Virus record (IMG/VR): IMGVR_UViG_3300025000_000286
Span: 1-33,960 of that record
DNA from: a virus
Strand: one strand, 5' to 3'
DNA length: 33,960 nt
In this document: positions 12,541 through 22,439 of the stretch, piece by piece
How the letters are laid out: each line of letters begins with the position of its first letter
Numbering within the stretch: position 1 is the stretch's first letter
Notes under the pieces: generated by a model
Told to the model about the DNA's origin: nothing
The model's input: the letters and a program-made list of their open reading frames with translations, nothing else
The model's database searches: none
Program-made: the position numbers and the translations under genes

Positions 12541-13290
12541 ATGAGCGCATTTTCGTTCATCGGCGCGGCCGATGCCTATGTGGATCTCCTGACCGACGAG
12601 GGCGTGCGGACCGGCCTGGAGCTGAAGGGCAACTGCACCCAGTTCATCCCGAAGCCCGACTCCGAGCGCAAGGAACAGACCGGCAACGGCCGGGCCAACT
12701 ACGGCCAGGTTCTGGCCTCGGTCACCCTGCCGAAGCCGATGACCGCCAAGATCACCTTCAATCAGCTGGACGCGGCCCTGTTCGCCGCCGCCTTCTTCGG
12801 CACGAATACGGCCCTGACCCAGGCGGCCGGGGCGGCTGCCGAGCGGGACGTGACGGCCATCCTCGACAAGTGGGTCGACATCGGCAACATGATGATCACC
12901 GCAGCGACCACGGTCAAGGATCCCACCAACACCACGATCTATGTCAAGGATACCGACTACGAGCTCAACCTCCGCCTGGGCATGATCAAGTGCCTGTCCA
13001 CCGGCTCCATCACCGCCGGCGAGGTCCTGAATGTTATCCCGACCTGCGAGGTGATCGCCGGCATCACGACGGCGGCGATGACCAAGAGTAACGTGCGGAT
13101 CCGCATCAAGCTCGACGGCCAGAACTTCGCCGACGGCCGCAATTTCGTCACCGACATCTACCAGATGCGCCTGGCGCCGACTTCAGAGTTCTCGTTGATC
13201 AGCAACGACTTCGTCGACGTGACCTTCGAGGGCTCGCTCGAGACCCCGGCCGGATACGACGAGCCGATGAAACATCACTGGCTGAGTTAA
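12541..13290 (+). CDS. Major tail tube protein
   Basis: A 249-residue protein with the alternating beta pattern of siphophage tail tubes. Recognisable parts are SFIGAADAYVDLLT at the start, TLPKPMTAKITFNQLDAALFAAAFFG, YELNLRLGMIKC, and FVDVTFEGSLETPAGYDEP near the end. It polymerises in hexameric rings around the tape measure. There is one tail tube gene and no sheath gene nearby, which supports a non-contractile tail. Confidence 0.85.
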   Translation: MSAFSFIGAADAYVDLLTDEGVRTGLELKGNCTQFIPKPDSERKEQTGNGRANYGQVLASVTLPKPMTAKITFNQLDAALFAAAFFGTNTALTQAAGAAAERDVTAILDKWVDIGNMMITAATTVKDPTNTTIYVKDTDYELNLRLGMIKCLSTGSITAGEVLNVIPTCEVIAGITTAAMTKSNVRIRIKLDGQNFADGRNFVTDIYQMRLAPTSEFSLISNDFVDVTFEGSLETPAGYDEPMKHHWLS

Positions 13291-13320
13291 GCCGCGGCCT
13301 GAACAGGCAAGGAGTAGCGC

Positions 13321-13716
13321 ATGGCGCGGAAAGTTAAGGTTGTGAATATCGAAGGGCGGGGTGAGGTGACAGTCAAGGAGGTCAGCCCGTACGGGATGTG
13401 GCTGGCCTACCAGGAAAAGGCCGGCGGGATGGAAGAGTTGACCGCCATGTTCAACGATGCGGTGACCCCAGGGTTTGACGAGATCAAGACCTGGTATCCG
13501 TCGGAGATAGAACAGGTTATCGATGCGTTTCTGACGGTGAATGAAAGTTTTTTCGCGATAGCCCGAAAGCTCAAGGTGGACGGGCTGCTGGTGGAGATCG
13601 GAAGAAATATGTCGAAGAGCTTGCCGGAGCTGTTTGTCGACTCATACAAGAAGGTCATGGCCAGGCTGCCTGGTCTTACGGCTGGAGCCATTTCCTCACC
13701 GCCATCAAAACCCTGA
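13321..13716 (+). CDS. Tail assembly chaperone, zero-frame product
   Basis: A 131-residue protein directly upstream of the tape measure gene, the fixed position of the tail assembly chaperone. VTVKEVSPYGMWLAYQEK and EIEQVIDAFLTVNESFF are typical of this family. At codons 76-78 the message reads T TTT TTC (13548-13554), a classical -1 slippery heptamer. Downstream of it both the zero frame and the -1 frame stay open. The -1 frame looks the more protein-like of the two, so this product and a frameshifted form are probably both made, as in lambda gpG/gpGT. Confidence 0.85.
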   Translation: MARKVKVVNIEGRGEVTVKEVSPYGMWLAYQEKAGGMEELTAMFNDAVTPGFDEIKTWYPSEIEQVIDAFLTVNESFFAIARKLKVDGLLVEIGRNMSKSLPELFVDSYKKVMARLPGLTAGAISSPPSKP

Positions 13717-13736
13717 ACGGACCTACGAAAGGATAA
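13554..13736 (+). CDS. Frameshift extension of the tail assembly chaperone (-1 frame)
   Basis: After a -1 slip at 13548-13554 the ribosome would add 60 codons ending at TAA 13736. The total product would be 138 residues. The added part includes KKYVEELAGAVCRLIQE and GHGQAAWSYGWSHFL followed by TAIKTLNGP. Its Trp/Tyr/His-rich pattern, together with ordinary codon use, looks like real coding sequence. No start codon and ribosome site lead into this frame, so frameshifting is the simplest explanation. The shift was not tested, and the zero-frame product is only seven residues shorter. Confidence 0.78.
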   Translation, partial: RDSPKAQGGRAAGGDRKKYVEELAGAVCRLIQEGHGQAAWSYGWSHFLTAIKTLNGPTKG

Positions 13737-13748
13737 ACTGGACACGGT

Positions 13749-16367
13749 ATGAGCACTGACAATCGGCTGGAAATGTTCATCTCCCTCAACGTTGAGGCCT
13801 TCAAGAAAGGCCTCAACGCCGCCGGGACCAGTGTGCGCACCATGGCTAGCGGGTCATCGACGGCATTCAAGGAGACCAGGACCCGGCTGCAGGAAAACGT
13901 GGTTGCCGTCAAGAATTACAACACGGAGCTGGGCCGGCAGGGCGGTGTCCTGCAAACCCTGAGAGGGCATGTTTTAGGGCTCGCCGGCGCGGTTGGTGTC
14001 AGCGTCAGCGCTATAGCAGGTTTGGGAAAGCTGGTCAATGTCACCAGGGAATTCGATCGACTGAATGCCGGGCTGATAACCGCAACAGGCAGCGCTGAAG
14101 GGGCAGAAAAGAAGTTCGCCGAGATCCAGGATTTTGCCACCAGAACACCCTATGACCTCGCCCAGGTGACGGACAGCTTCGTCAAGCTGGTGAATTTCGG
14201 GCTCAACCCAACCGATCGGGCAATGACCAGTTATGGCAATACCGCGTCGGCCCTGGGCAAGGATCTCAATCAGATGATCGAGGCGGTGGCCGATGCCGCT
14301 ACGGGCGAGTTTGAGCGGCTGAAAGAGTTTGGCATCAAATCGAAATCCGAGGGAGACAAGGTCAGTTTCACCTTCCGCGGCATTACCACAACCGTGGGGA
14401 AAAATGCCCAGGAGATCGAGGAGTACCTGATCAGGCTGGGAGAGACGAATTTCGGCGACGCCATGGCCAACCGGATGTCAACGCTTGATGGAGCGTTGTC
14501 AAATCTGGGGGATGAGTGGGACAAGCTGTTTCTCAATATTTCTCAGTCGGGAGTAGGCGACGCGATTGCCGACACGGTCCGTGTCGGGATTTCGATGCTG
14601 GAAACGTTGAATGAGAAAATCAAATCCGGCGAGCTGCTGGAGTGGGTGCGGGCTCACAAAGAGGTGCTCATTACGATCGGGGCGGTGGTGACCGGTGTCC
14701 TGGCACTGGCAACTGGTGCTGCTGCGCTGGCCCCTGTCGTCTACACACTCACCGCTGCCTGGCGTGGCTTGAATGCCGTCATGCTGTTGACCTCCGGCAG
14801 CCAGCTCCTGCCCTGGCTCGGCTCGGTTGTCGGCGCATTAAAAGGCGTGCAGCTGGCCGCGCTGGGTGCAGCTGGGGCGCTTGGGGCAGCGGCCGGTGCA
14901 TCGCTGGCGCTGATTGGCGGGTACTCCCTGGGCGGTAAGATCGCCGAGTGGGAATATTTCTCTGATGTGGTCAAGGGCAACAAGGATGCACTGGCGGAGG
15001 TTCCCGCCAAATTCGCGGCGATCAGCCAGGCGACGGGAGTATCGATCCGCTCGTTTGAAGATTTGAATAAGGCCCAGAAGGAAGGGCTGATCAGATTCAA
15101 TGAAGCGACCGGGGCATGGGAGAAGGTTGCCAAATCTGCCCAGGATTCTGCCGATGTCCAGGTCAAGGCCCAGAAGGCTGCGACCGACGAGATGAAGAAG
15201 CAGTACAAGGAATATGCTGACGAGGTCAAGCGGCTGCAGGACGATATCGCCGGCCGCGAACAATCGCTGGCTGAGCGGCTGCGCGAGATGGCCCGATCGG
15301 GCATGTCAGATTTTTCCGCCTGGAAGGATCGTAAGGATGAGGCTGAGGAATATGCAGTTGCCGCAAAGCGAGCTGCAGAGGAATCAAAGAAGGCCTTTGC
15401 TGCCGGCGATGCCGTGGGCGGCCAGAGTAAGGCTAAAGAGGCTGTCGATCTGTACGACAAGGCCCAGGCTGCAGCTGCAGATCTCAATCGCGAGGTAAAG
15501 GACGGCGACACGGTTATCGCCTCTCAGCAGCAGAACCTGAAGACGGCTATGTCCATGGTCGAGGAGTACGGCCGCGGGGCGATCGACGTGCAGGAATCCC
15601 TCCAGACGGCGATCAAGGAGTCTGCGCAGGCCCTCGATGCCCAGAGCGGCGGCCAGCTGTCGAAGGAACTGCCGGAAGTGGCCAAACAGTTCGGCGAGAT
15701 CAAGGAACAGGCGGATGACCTGGCGGGATCGGCGGAGACCTTCAACAAGGCCTGGGGCAACGCCTGGGATCGGGCGGTGCTGGGCGGCAAGGATGCGATC
15801 GCGCAGCTCGAGCGCGAGCTGCAGGATTTGACCAAGGACCGACACATCAAGGTCTATGTCGAAGAGGTCGAGAAGAGATCCCGCGGCGGCGTGCTCGGCC
15901 TGATGCATGGCGGTCTGGTGCAGATGCTGGCGGCCGGCGGCACGGTGGTGCGCAACATCATCAACGGCGGCTTCCTGCCCGGCTTCGGCGGCGGCGACAC
16001 GGTGCCGTTGCTGGGTGAGCGCGGCGAGGTGATGATCAACAAGTACGCGGTGCGGGCCGGTGGCCTGCGGGCGGCCCTGGCCTTCAACGCCGGCCAGTGG
16101 GATGTGGTGATCGAGGAGCTGCTGAAGCGGACCGGCATGAACCTGCACTCAATCCTCGGCTACCATCTCGGCGGCCTGGTCGGCAGCCTGCCTGGCGTGC
16201 AGGGTTTGGCTGGCGGCGGGTCGGTTGAGGCAGCACCCGGAAAATCCGATGCAATAACCCTAAACCTGAACTTCGGCAACGGCCGATCCATCCCGGTGAC
16301 AACCAGCCGCAGATCCGCCGGCGAGCTGATCAGGGAATTCCGCCGGGCGGAGGTGATGAGCTCATGA
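13749..16367 (+). CDS. Tape measure protein
   Basis: An 872-residue protein that sets tail length and is ejected ahead of the DNA. The N-terminus has the phage tape-measure pattern: FDRLNAGLITATGSAEGAEKKF, then DFATRTPYDLAQVTDSFVKL and EFERLKEFGIKSKSEGDKV, followed by LDGALSNLGDEWDKLF. Hydrophobic stretches lie near 72-95, 302-330 and 370-395. A long charged coiled coil covers about 470-700. The C-terminus has Gly-rich segments (GFGGGDTVPLLGERGEVMINKYAVRAGGLRAAL). At roughly 1.5 angstrom per residue, the tail would be about 130 nm. Confidence 0.95.
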   Translation: MSTDNRLEMFISLNVEAFKKGLNAAGTSVRTMASGSSTAFKETRTRLQENVVAVKNYNTELGRQGGVLQTLRGHVLGLAGAVGVSVSAIAGLGKLVNVTREFDRLNAGLITATGSAEGAEKKFAEIQDFATRTPYDLAQVTDSFVKLVNFGLNPTDRAMTSYGNTASALGKDLNQMIEAVADAATGEFERLKEFGIKSKSEGDKVSFTFRGITTTVGKNAQEIEEYLIRLGETNFGDAMANRMSTLDGALSNLGDEWDKLFLNISQSGVGDAIADTVRVGISMLETLNEKIKSGELLEWVRAHKEVLITIGAVVTGVLALATGAAALAPVVYTLTAAWRGLNAVMLLTSGSQLLPWLGSVVGALKGVQLAALGAAGALGAAAGASLALIGGYSLGGKIAEWEYFSDVVKGNKDALAEVPAKFAAISQATGVSIRSFEDLNKAQKEGLIRFNEATGAWEKVAKSAQDSADVQVKAQKAATDEMKKQYKEYADEVKRLQDDIAGREQSLAERLREMARSGMSDFSAWKDRKDEAEEYAVAAKRAAEESKKAFAAGDAVGGQSKAKEAVDLYDKAQAAAADLNREVKDGDTVIASQQQNLKTAMSMVEEYGRGAIDVQESLQTAIKESAQALDAQSGGQLSKELPEVAKQFGEIKEQADDLAGSAETFNKAWGNAWDRAVLGGKDAIAQLERELQDLTKDRHIKVYVEEVEKRSRGGVLGLMHGGLVQMLAAGGTVVRNIINGGFLPGFGGGDTVPLLGERGEVMINKYAVRAGGLRAALAFNAGQWDVVIEELLKRTGMNLHSILGYHLGGLVGSLPGVQGLAGGGSVEAAPGKSDAITLNLNFGNGRSIPVTTSRRSAGELIREFRRAEVMSS

Positions 16368-19549: not shown

Positions 19550-19926
19550 TTATTAAATCCCTGCCGTTATCACATGTACAATCTGCCAAAATAATATTGG
19601 ATGTTGCTATTGATGCTGGCCTGACAACAGATGAGTTGCGGCGAAAGTTGGTGGCCAGGATCGACCAGGTTGCGGCTGAGGTCGCTGATGGTAATGAGCA
19701 GCTCCCCAGGGCCGTGGAAAGAGGGAAAAGACGGCCCGACAATATCACCACCTGCTCGGTGTGCGGGAAAGCAGCAGTGATCGTGCCGGTAAATACCGAC
19801 AGGAAAACCAGGATCAGTGGTGATTATACCCACGGCATCCAGTGCCAGAACCGACCGGCCACCGACCAGCCGTGGCGGGATGGGATGTGCGGCCATACCG
19901 AGTATGTCGTGTGGAGGGATAGATAG
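19543..19926 (+). CDS. Small protein with zinc-ribbon-like cysteines
   Basis: A 127-residue protein with TTCSVCGKAAVIVPV (CxxC) and later CQNRP and GMCGHTEYVVWRD cysteines that could complete a metal site. The start overlaps the previous gene. The first 60 bases are AT-rich while the rest returns to high GC, marking another mosaic boundary. No function is recognised. Its stop TAG overlaps the GTG start of the large tail protein. Confidence 0.6.
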   Translation: MLIIKSLPLSHVQSAKIILDVAIDAGLTTDELRRKLVARIDQVAAEVADGNEQLPRAVERGKRRPDNITTCSVCGKAAVIVPVNTDRKTRISGDYTHGIQCQNRPATDQPWRDGMCGHTEYVVWRDR

Positions 19927-22439
19927 TGTCCACCACATACATTAACGGCCAGCCATGGCGGCAGCAATATCCCAACAACGAGGAGATTTTAGCCAATATT
20001 ACTGGTTGGGCAGCTGGCCCCAGTTTGCCTTTGGCTTTTCGTTCCTCTCCGGCAATAGTCACCAAAAACAGAGTGTATCTGCTGGGTGGCTATACAACAG
20101 TCCCTGTTGCAACAGTCTATACTGCTCCAATCAACGAAGACGGGACGCTGGGCACCTGGGCGACTGGCACCAGTTTGCCTGGCGTGTTCAATGATGCGTC
20201 TTCAATCGTCACGAAAAATAGAGTCTATCTGTTTGCCGGAGTTGATGCATCGGGTGTTTCAGCAACGGTCTATACCGCCCCGATCAACGAGGACGGTACG
20301 CTGGGAACCTGGACGATTGGCCCCAGTCTGCCTGGAATATTACGGTCCTCCGCGCCGATTGTTACAAAAAATAGAGTCTATCTGTTGGGTGGCTACACGA
20401 CGGCCTCCGTAGCAACAGTCTATACTGCTCCAATCAACGAAGACGGGACGCTGGGCACCTGGGCAGTTGGAACAAGTTTGCCTGGAATATTGCGGTCTTC
20501 TGCGGCGATCGTCACAAAAAATAGAGTATATCTGTTGGGCGGTCTTGTTTCAGCGGCCGTGGCAACGGTCTATACCGCCCCGATCAACGAGGATGGGACT
20601 CTAGGAGCATGGACAACGGGGCCCAGCCTACCTGGAGTTCTTCATTCCTCCTCGCAGATTGTTACAAAAAATAGAGTCTATCTGTTGGGTGGCTACACGA
20701 CGGCCTCCGTAGCAACAGTCTATACTGCTCCAATCAACGAAGACGGGACGCTGGGCACCTGGGCAGTTGGAACAAGTTTGCCTGGAAATTTCAGTTACTC
20801 CTCGGTGATTGTGACCTCCAGTAAAGTGTATCTATTAGCTGGTGTTGTTTCAGCAGCCGTCTCAACTGTCTATGTCGCAACATTTCCTGGCGGAAAAAAC
20901 GATTATAGCGCGGACAGTTATATCACGATTGTTGGGCAATGGCTCAACGCCGCAGTCTCCCAGCCCTACTCGATGTTCTCCGATGCCACCCAGGTCGCAA
21001 GCGAGCAGCCCTACGGCATCGCCGACGGCCTTGATGAGGTCGCCCTGCTCCAGCTCTACTCGATGGTCATGGAGGTCTGGCTGACCCAGCATTACGGCGA
21101 TGTGCCGCTGATCGGCAAGGCCCTGGTCCAGCCCTATGGCGCGGCCTCGGTGCTCAACAAGTCCCTGCTGCAGCGCTGGGGTCATGCCCCGGAGCTGGCG
21201 GTCAGCCTCGAGCAGCCATGGTCCATGCCGGATCTGCTGCAGGCGGTGAGCGAGCAGCCCTACGGCATCGTCGCCGAGGTCCTCGAGGTCACCTGTGAGC
21301 AGCTCTATAATATCAACGAGCTGACCGGCCTGTTCGCCAGCCTGATCCAGCCCTATGCCCTGGCCGGCGAAGCGGCACGGCTCTACCAGTTCGACACCCG
21401 GCTCTATATCAATGGCGAGCGCATCCCCTATCACTCGCTGGAGTGGCAGCAGGTCGATTCCGAGTGCGCCTGGTCGTGCGATTTCGCGATCAAGGATCAG
21501 GCGGTCGCGATGAAATGCGTCGAGGGCGCGGCGATCATGATCACCAGCTGCGGCGACACCTGGCTGCTCCGCTGCTATGACGGCTGGTTCGAGGATCGCC
21601 GCCATGGTTCGACGGTCTATCGGGTATCCGGGTTCAGCCGGACCCGCGATCTCGATCTCGCCACGCCCCTGCTCGGCGATCTGCCCGGCGGCATGGCCTC
21701 GGCGCTGGTCGCGGACCTGGCGGCGCCGCACGGCATCACCGTCGATTGGCAGATGGCGGACGGCTATCTCGCCGCCGGCACGGTGACGGCCAACGACGAG
21801 ACGCCGCTGGCCGTGATCAGAGACATCGTCCATGACGCCCGCGGCATCATCCTCGCCACCATGGACGGCAACCTGCTGGTGGTGGCGGCCGAGGAAACCG
21901 CCATTCCGGACTGGCCGACGGTCGAACCGGCGGACACGATCATCGCCCGGCTGGAGCGGATCTCCACCAGCGAGCAGCGGGATGAGCAGAAGGGATACAA
22001 CCGCTTCATCGTCTCCGACCAGCTGGCCAGCGCCGGCGGATTCCGCTGGGAAGAGGTGGCGATCGACGGATCGACCAAGGAGGTCCGGCTGTTCGTCGTG
22101 CCGTTTGATCCCGCCAGGCAGTTCTATCTCGGCCATAGCGGCGGCACCGATGTCAGCATTGAACCGTTCGGCCTGCGCAGCCTGACGATCCCCGACGAGC
22201 AGGTCGAGTTCGTGGCCGGGGCCGGCAAGACCACCAAGCCGATCTACGGCGTCAGCGGCTACGCCTGGCAAAAGGCCGACCTGGGCCTGGTCATCCCGGC
22301 CGAAGACTGCCTGCTGACCGCCTCGACCCCCGGCTATTCCCTGCTTTCGATCACCTATCTGACCCAGTTCTACCGCTGGATTGTCCGCGATCCCAATATC
22401 GAGGATGTCCAGTTCATCTTCCATGAGGTGACGCCATGA
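19926..22439 (+). CDS. Large tail protein: kelch-like propeller + QPY repeats + hub-like domain
   Basis: An 837-residue protein starting at GTG 19926, with GGAGG nine bases upstream. Residues 27-325 contain six units of about 50 residues, each with SLPG, VTKNRVYLLGG and TVYTAPINEDGTLG elements, as expected for a six-bladed kelch-type beta-propeller. Residues about 338-485 hold about ten 14-residue units ending in Q-P-Y/W/L-G/S. Residues 490-837 contain RLYINGERIPYHSLEW and a long hub-like region resembling gp27/Mu gp44-type baseplate or tail-hub proteins, ending in FYRWIVRDPNIEDVQFIF. The propeller probably binds host surface sugar or protein, and the C-terminus anchors it to the tail tip. 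Domain assignments are by pattern only. Confidence 0.78.
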   Translation: MSTTYINGQPWRQQYPNNEEILANITGWAAGPSLPLAFRSSPAIVTKNRVYLLGGYTTVPVATVYTAPINEDGTLGTWATGTSLPGVFNDASSIVTKNRVYLFAGVDASGVSATVYTAPINEDGTLGTWTIGPSLPGILRSSAPIVTKNRVYLLGGYTTASVATVYTAPINEDGTLGTWAVGTSLPGILRSSAAIVTKNRVYLLGGLVSAAVATVYTAPINEDGTLGAWTTGPSLPGVLHSSSQIVTKNRVYLLGGYTTASVATVYTAPINEDGTLGTWAVGTSLPGNFSYSSVIVTSSKVYLLAGVVSAAVSTVYVATFPGGKNDYSADSYITIVGQWLNAAVSQPYSMFSDATQVASEQPYGIADGLDEVALLQLYSMVMEVWLTQHYGDVPLIGKALVQPYGAASVLNKSLLQRWGHAPELAVSLEQPWSMPDLLQAVSEQPYGIVAEVLEVTCEQLYNINELTGLFASLIQPYALAGEAARLYQFDTRLYINGERIPYHSLEWQQVDSECAWSCDFAIKDQAVAMKCVEGAAIMITSCGDTWLLRCYDGWFEDRRHGSTVYRVSGFSRTRDLDLATPLLGDLPGGMASALVADLAAPHGITVDWQMADGYLAAGTVTANDETPLAVIRDIVHDARGIILATMDGNLLVVAAEETAIPDWPTVEPADTIIARLERISTSEQRDEQKGYNRFIVSDQLASAGGFRWEEVAIDGSTKEVRLFVVPFDPARQFYLGHSGGTDVSIEPFGLRSLTIPDEQVEFVAGAGKTTKPIYGVSGYAWQKADLGLVIPAEDCLLTASTPGYSLLSITYLTQFYRWIVRDPNIEDVQFIFHEVTP
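20004..20900 (+). repeat. Six tandem ~150-base repeats encoding a propeller
   Basis: The six propeller units repeat with a period close to 150 bases. The strongest match is between bases 20357-20487 and 20657-20787, which are identical over 131 bases at a spacing of 300. Identical DNA, not just protein, implies a recent duplication or gene conversion of two blades. The region is more AT-rich than the flanking tail genes. Confidence 0.9.
20938..21390 (+). repeat. Degenerate ~42-base / 14-residue QPY repeat array
   Basis: About ten to eleven units of around 14 residues contain Gln-(Pro/Leu/His/Arg)-(Tyr/Trp)-(Gly/Ser) at their start, such as SQPYSM, SEQPYGI, VQPYGAA, EQPWSM and IQPYAL. The DNA is GC-rich and diverged, unlike the adjacent propeller repeats, so this array is old. 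It links the propeller to the hub domain. Confidence 0.8.

Follow-up and report, generated by a model that had tools for sequence, protein, structure and literature searches.

Frameshifted tail assembly chaperones are well known from lambda, P2, and many other phages (PMC5009743, PMC3091744, PMC10885494). In lambda, the chaperone gene G lies between the genes for the tail tube and the tape measure, and a -1 frameshift at a heptamer gives the extended second product, GT (PMC5009743). P2 likewise makes a 0-frame product, E, and a -1 extended product, E+E', from a site of the T_TTT_TTG class, and no downstream structure has been reported there (PMC3091744). Shine-Dalgarno (SD)-like elements 9-14 nt upstream have been reported for -1 shifts, with dnaX and IS elements as known cases of SD stimulation (PMC5009743). 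Here, we analyzed the full 33,960 bases of a metagenome-type virus record, which we call the window. Based on sequence comparison, we propose that one of its genes encodes a tail assembly chaperone pair of the lambda G/GT type through a -1 frameshift at T_TTT_TTC, a reading to which we assign a probability of about 0.93.

The window has the standard siphovirus morphogenesis order of terminase, portal, protease, capsid, connectors, tail tube, chaperone gene, and tape measure, and the chaperone gene is flanked on the same strand by the tail tube gene upstream and the tape measure gene downstream (Table 1). Within the chaperone gene, the codons AGT TTT TTC set T_TTT_TTC in phase, with its X at 13548, and the gene has no other in-frame XXXYYYZ heptamer; the listed genes of the window contain 18 such heptamers in 6686 codons. 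Our reading of the sequence bears out the first-pass annotation, which had placed a T TTT TTC in the right frame at 13548-13554 and had described a -1 frame that stays open for 60 more codons and ends at 13736. The -1 frame is open from 13545, and its TAA stop (13734-13736) lies twelve bases 5' of the tape measure ATG. The numbers given for the 0 frame, which continues for 53 codons past the site compared with 60 in the -1 frame, and for the two products (131 and 138 residues) are also correct.

Table 1. Positions of the chaperone gene, its putative slip site, and neighboring features in the window
Feature	Position	Strand	Basis
Tail tube (major tail) protein gene, directly upstream	12541..13290	+	phrog_807 major tail protein with Ig-like domain, E 9.2e-36
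AAGGAG, likely to be the chaperone gene's ribosome-binding site	13309..13314	+	Sequence reading
0-frame ORF, G-like tail assembly chaperone, 131 aa	13321..13716	+	ORF reading; homologues along entire length
Degenerate ACGG where relatives have SD-like GAGG, 10 nt 5' of heptamer	13534..13537	+	Family comparison
TGA closing the -1 frame just 5' of the slip site	13542..13544	+	Sequence reading
-1 ORF leading to putative 138-aa GT-like product; 60 codons past site, counted from 13554	13545..13736	+	Open frame; conserved -1 motif
Slippery heptamer T_TTT_TTC	13548..13554	+	In frame; T_TTT_TTN in 20/20 close relatives
Proximal overlap: mainly 0-frame constraint (helix), variable -1 linker	13555..13619	+	Substitution pattern, identities
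Possible 7-bp stem-loop 3' of the site, not significant	13559..13587	+	Dinucleotide shuffles
Distal segment: conserved -1 C-terminal domain (LAGAVCRLIQEGHGQAAWSYGWSHFLTAIKTLNG...)	13620..13733	+	Identities by frame
Tape measure protein gene, directly downstream	13749..16367	+	phrog_1716 tape measure, E 2e-48; PF20155 TMP_3

Could this arrangement be accidental? When the codons of the window's gene were redrawn with the 0-frame protein held fixed, the -1 frame was open to 13733 with a probability of 0.16, T_TTT_TT was present with a probability of 0.037, and the two were found together with a probability of 0.006. The frame pattern is only mildly improbable within this genome alone and is weak evidence by itself. 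Therefore, at a window-only probability of about 0.006, comparison with relatives was needed.

We searched for relatives first with the 0-frame protein and then with alignments, made separately for the 0 frame, for the -1 peptide, and for the fusion. The relatives come from IMG/VR contigs and from genomes and prophages of Desulfobulbales (Desulfobulbus, Desulfocapsa, and Desulfofustis glycolicus DSM 9705). After loci were collapsed, the close family consisted of 20 distinct members, the window included, and most members are 40-59% identical to the window. The heptamer highlighted in the first-pass annotation proved to be conserved. T_TTT_TTN, with TTC, TTG, or TTA as the last codon, is present at the same place in 20/20 close members; it is kept although the flanking residues vary, and the T run is always exactly six. 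Given a mean per-sequence probability of 0.034 from codon usage in these 20 homologues, its presence in all of them is, judged from sequence, far beyond chance, although the count treats related sequences as independent and multiplied probabilities would be overstated. The -1 frame is open in all 20 close members examined, which have 35-71 0-frame codons and 56-71 -1 codons past the site. Moreover, 19 further, more distant members have the -1 domain placed likewise, with T_TTT_TTN or A_AAC_CCT as the point of entry. The predicted -1 peptides of the D. glycolicus DSM 9705 prophage include VIQAGHGVGAWHYGWSCFLTALNALSTR. A search of viral contigs with the bare -1 peptide gave no matches, but a three-sequence alignment of the -1 peptide did find relatives. 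Phage records contained no convincing direct homologue of the window's protein. The copies at L070:1498-1641 and in genome G096 (contig C27:2472-2654) possibly belong to decayed prophages: a -1 domain with no recognizable partner upstream of it and a copy interrupted by an internal TAA.

Which frame does selection act on? The best conserved part of the gene is the -1 C-terminus, with the motif VCRLIQxGHGxxAWHYGWxFF. We fixed the 0-frame protein, redrew its codons synonymously, and scored -1 similarity in the overlap. The observed similarity was 2.64, compared with 0.28 in the redraws (z 37.6); because the redraws ignore shared ancestry, this z is inflated, and an N-terminal control region, where alternative frames reach only z 3-4, and the third frame serve as guards. 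Across the 20 homologues, not one stop interrupts the -1 frame where it overlaps the 0 frame, compared with an expectation of 3.2% per codon. Together, the redraws and the identities by frame indicate that the -1 ORF is under purifying selection as a protein.

The two frames divide the overlap between them. In the proximal part, identity is 31.1% in the 0 frame, 21.6% in the -1 frame, and 26.0% in the third frame, and codon-position substitution rates follow the 0 frame. In the distal part, identity is 68.9% in the -1 frame, 50.9% in the 0 frame, and 49.6% in the third frame, and the rates follow the -1 frame. By this pattern of substitution, constraint falls chiefly on the 0 frame for about 24 codons past the site and chiefly on the -1 frame thereafter. 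The near part appears to code mainly for a 0-frame helix and a variable -1 linker, and the far part for the -1 domain. The distal 0-frame tail probably arises as a by-product of coding in the -1 frame and does not look like a second conserved domain, a view that fits the variable position of the 0-frame stop. We rejected equal conservation of both frames over the whole overlap, as conservation of the 0 frame in the distal part is on a par with that of the third frame. Homologues thus do not conserve only the 0 frame, since the -1 C-terminus is the more conserved of the two in that region. Both of the comparisons that had been suggested for this locus, a synonymous-site analysis (z 37.6) and an alignment of the -1 peptide with relatives (68.9% distal identity), support -1 coding.

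What would stimulate the shift? In the close family, a glutamate (E) codon a few codons 5' of the site is GAG in 19/20 members and is followed by GTN, placing GAGG exactly 10 nt 5' of the heptamer. The family mean for pairing with the anti-SD is -11.4 kcal/mol, compared with -7.86 ± 0.83 for synonymous redraws, and 0/200 redraws were as low. The SD-like element is also found at that place in most distant relatives and in Pseudomonas phage F10. The window is the exception: it has ACG for GAG, its anti-SD pairing is -6.1 kcal/mol, and with ACGG in place of GAGG it has no dnaX-type SD-like element 9-14 nt 5' of the heptamer. Its 7-bp stem, 4 nt 3' of the site, has a z of -0.9 to -1.0 relative to dinucleotide shuffles. 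A search across the close family for conserved downstream RNA structure found none, and the strengths of the SD element and the hairpin were uncorrelated. Several relatives with A_AAC_CCT have strong hairpins about 6 nt past the site (z -3.3 to -4.1), whose arms differ in register. By sequence, A_AAC_CCT relatives with both the SD-like element and the hairpin have a predicted three-part cassette resembling that of dnaX. The Desulfobulbales A_AAC_CCT loci (L063-L068) mostly have an SD-like element upstream and a hairpin ~6 nt downstream, with z about -2.6 to -4.1. Because the window has neither its relatives' SD-like element nor significant downstream structure, its slip efficiency may be low or may be determined in another way. 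A search of mainly open-access literature found no paper describing an SD stimulator within tail chaperone genes.

Other routes to the -1 protein can be imagined. RNA polymerase might slip on the six Ts, so that the -1 protein is made from altered mRNAs. Homopolymer runs can be slippage sites, and the conservation of exactly six Ts in the close family would suit such a mechanism. However, in nine of the distant relatives the matching position is occupied by A_AAC_CCT, in which no run exceeds three, and the X_XXY_YYZ phase is strictly kept even though polymerase slippage needs none. The SD-like element 10 nt upstream, moreover, is within the range that stimulates ribosomal -1 shifts (PMC5009743). 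Since the distant relatives have T_TTT_TTN or A_AAC_CCT, tandem tRNA slippage is favored over slippage by RNA polymerase, which we consider improbable.

Less probable still is that no frameshift takes place and that the -1 ORF either initiates on its own as a separate gene or is open by accident. The latter draws on the chance probability of 0.16 for an open -1 frame in this genome alone, and the upstream SD-like element could in principle serve initiation of the former. Yet no part of the gene is better conserved than the -1 domain, and a slippery heptamer precedes this domain in all 20 close relatives. ATG, GTG, and TTG are all absent from the window's -1 ORF, which excludes separate initiation from any of the standard start codons there, and most relatives likewise lack all three in the -1 frame from ten codons 5' of the site onward. 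We give a negligible probability to a broken gene, in which mutation or assembly error has split one frame into two. Two ORFs in one gene slot of a metagenome-type virus record could be read that way, but the same arrangement is shared by independent metagenomes, the isolate D. glycolicus DSM 9705, and Pseudomonas phages F10, LESphi2, and MD8.

The first-pass annotation had also called the gene a tail assembly chaperone, and we base this identity on where the gene lies, on the putative frameshift, and on fold and profile matches that are weak. In the sequence libraries, the 0-frame product matched only PHROG families of unknown function, chiefly phrog_7608 (E 0.0032), which distant relatives match better than the window does. 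One distant relative weakly matches phrog_3840, tail assembly chaperone (E 0.0033). Neither product matched Pfam or NCBIfam, curated chaperone profiles did not match the window's products, and a PDB sequence search returned no phage-tail match, only apparently unrelated chains. The 0-frame model (pLDDT 77.6) has a predicted beta hairpin followed by helices. Foldseek against the PDB placed the HK97 tail assembly chaperone 2OB9 at ranks 1 and 2, weakly (E 0.58). With VIA, the best match to this model was 3klu (YqbN; Z 4.5), which we take to be a phage chaperone relative, and 2OB9 scored Z 3.3, both weak. The -1 peptide is predicted as two helices with low confidence. The fold matches, weak as they are, point the same way as gene order and the frameshift.

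Among isolated phages, the nearest tail-tube relatives are PCA1, ACF1, HS6, and MuM16-1, whose annotation shows no chaperone gene in the interval from tail tube to tape measure. AS1 carries two small ORFs at that place, without the motif. These five phages are therefore unusable as comparators. In PCA1, ACF1, HS6, and MuM16-1, there is almost no room between the two genes. Elsewhere in the window, an 837-aa tail protein (19926-22439) contains several near-identical 50-residue Kelch-like repeats (VTKNRVYLLGG...YTAPINEDGTLGTW), and a 150-bp spacing is visible in the DNA, with AAAAAAT at 20366, 20516, and 20666.

How would the locus work under -1 ribosomal frameshifting, the reading that we prefer? 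Most ribosomes would read 13321-13716 and make the 131-residue G-like protein. We infer that a smaller share, whose P and A sites both contain tRNA-Phe on TTT TTC, moves back by one base at 13548-13554 and ends in the -1 frame at 13736, giving the 138-residue GT-like protein. The two products would be identical over their first 78 residues, and the Trp/Tyr-rich C-terminus of the GT-like protein is predicted to form two helices. If the lambda model applies here, the tape measure protein would be bound by the residues that both products have in common, tail tube subunits would be recruited through the -1 domain, and slip efficiency would set the ratio of G-like to GT-like product. As members of this type, the two proteins would be made in a constant ratio and would not be part of the virion. 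A more specific proposal is that the 0-frame helix region and the -1 C-terminal domain are both functional on one stretch of DNA, whose near part is tuned to the 0 frame and whose far part is tuned to the -1 frame, so that the frameshift swaps about 40% of the protein instead of adding a tail, and that a dnaX-like SD element drives slippage in most members. We consider the odds of this combination to be even.

Our work adds a family of frameshifted tail chaperones, from phages and prophages of Desulfobulbales, that is unnamed in the protein libraries searched, and F10-like Pseudomonas phages contribute an unannotated -1 extension to it. Standard annotation therefore misses one morphogenesis protein in each. 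The heptamer, the SD element, the hairpin, and the length of the overlap all vary naturally around one homologous site, which makes the family well suited to studying how the chaperone ratio is tuned by phages.

The window's gene has no detectable sequence similarity to lambda G, where the site is G_GGA_AAG, about 5 0-frame codons are left compared with 53 in the window, and an SD-like element upstream of the site is absent. In P2, only a weaker SD-like stretch is found, closer to the site; E ends about 6 codons past the site, and its products differ widely in length (E 91 aa, E+E' 142 aa), unlike the near-equal products of the window. The first-pass annotation had called the long 0-frame remainder unusual. 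This holds relative to P2 and lambda, with their roughly 5-6 codons, but there is a predicted precedent in ORF 35/36 of Pseudomonas phage PaMx73 (D3112-like), a T TTT TTC with 43 0-frame codons left (PMC4378225).

HK97, whose gp13 (2OB9) was the top-ranked but weak Foldseek match, also has a -1 joined second product. The 'tail assembly protein' of Pseudomonas phages F10, MD8, and LESphi2 combines a distantly related 0 frame and -1 domain with T_TTT_TTC and with GAGG 10 nt upstream, but only about 13 0-frame codons follow the site and the -1 part is unannotated in the records. In F10 (NC_007805.1 9375-9769; L076:2247-2641), this 100-aa protein has an unannotated -1 extension ending ...ICVLVRLGHHHVLEYPWSLFLTALKAE, and L077 and L078 are alike. 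E. coli dnaX is a different gene with a different heptamer, yet its SD-like element lies exactly 10 nt 5' of the heptamer, as in most relatives of the window's gene, and several A_AAC_CCT relatives share with it a hairpin about 6 nt past the heptamer; in the window itself, the SD element is reduced to a remnant and the hairpin is not significant. Altogether, the chaperone gene is a new and well-supported case of a strategy that phages such as lambda and P2 have long been known to use, and the conserved SD element and the partitioned overlap are the interesting features of its family.
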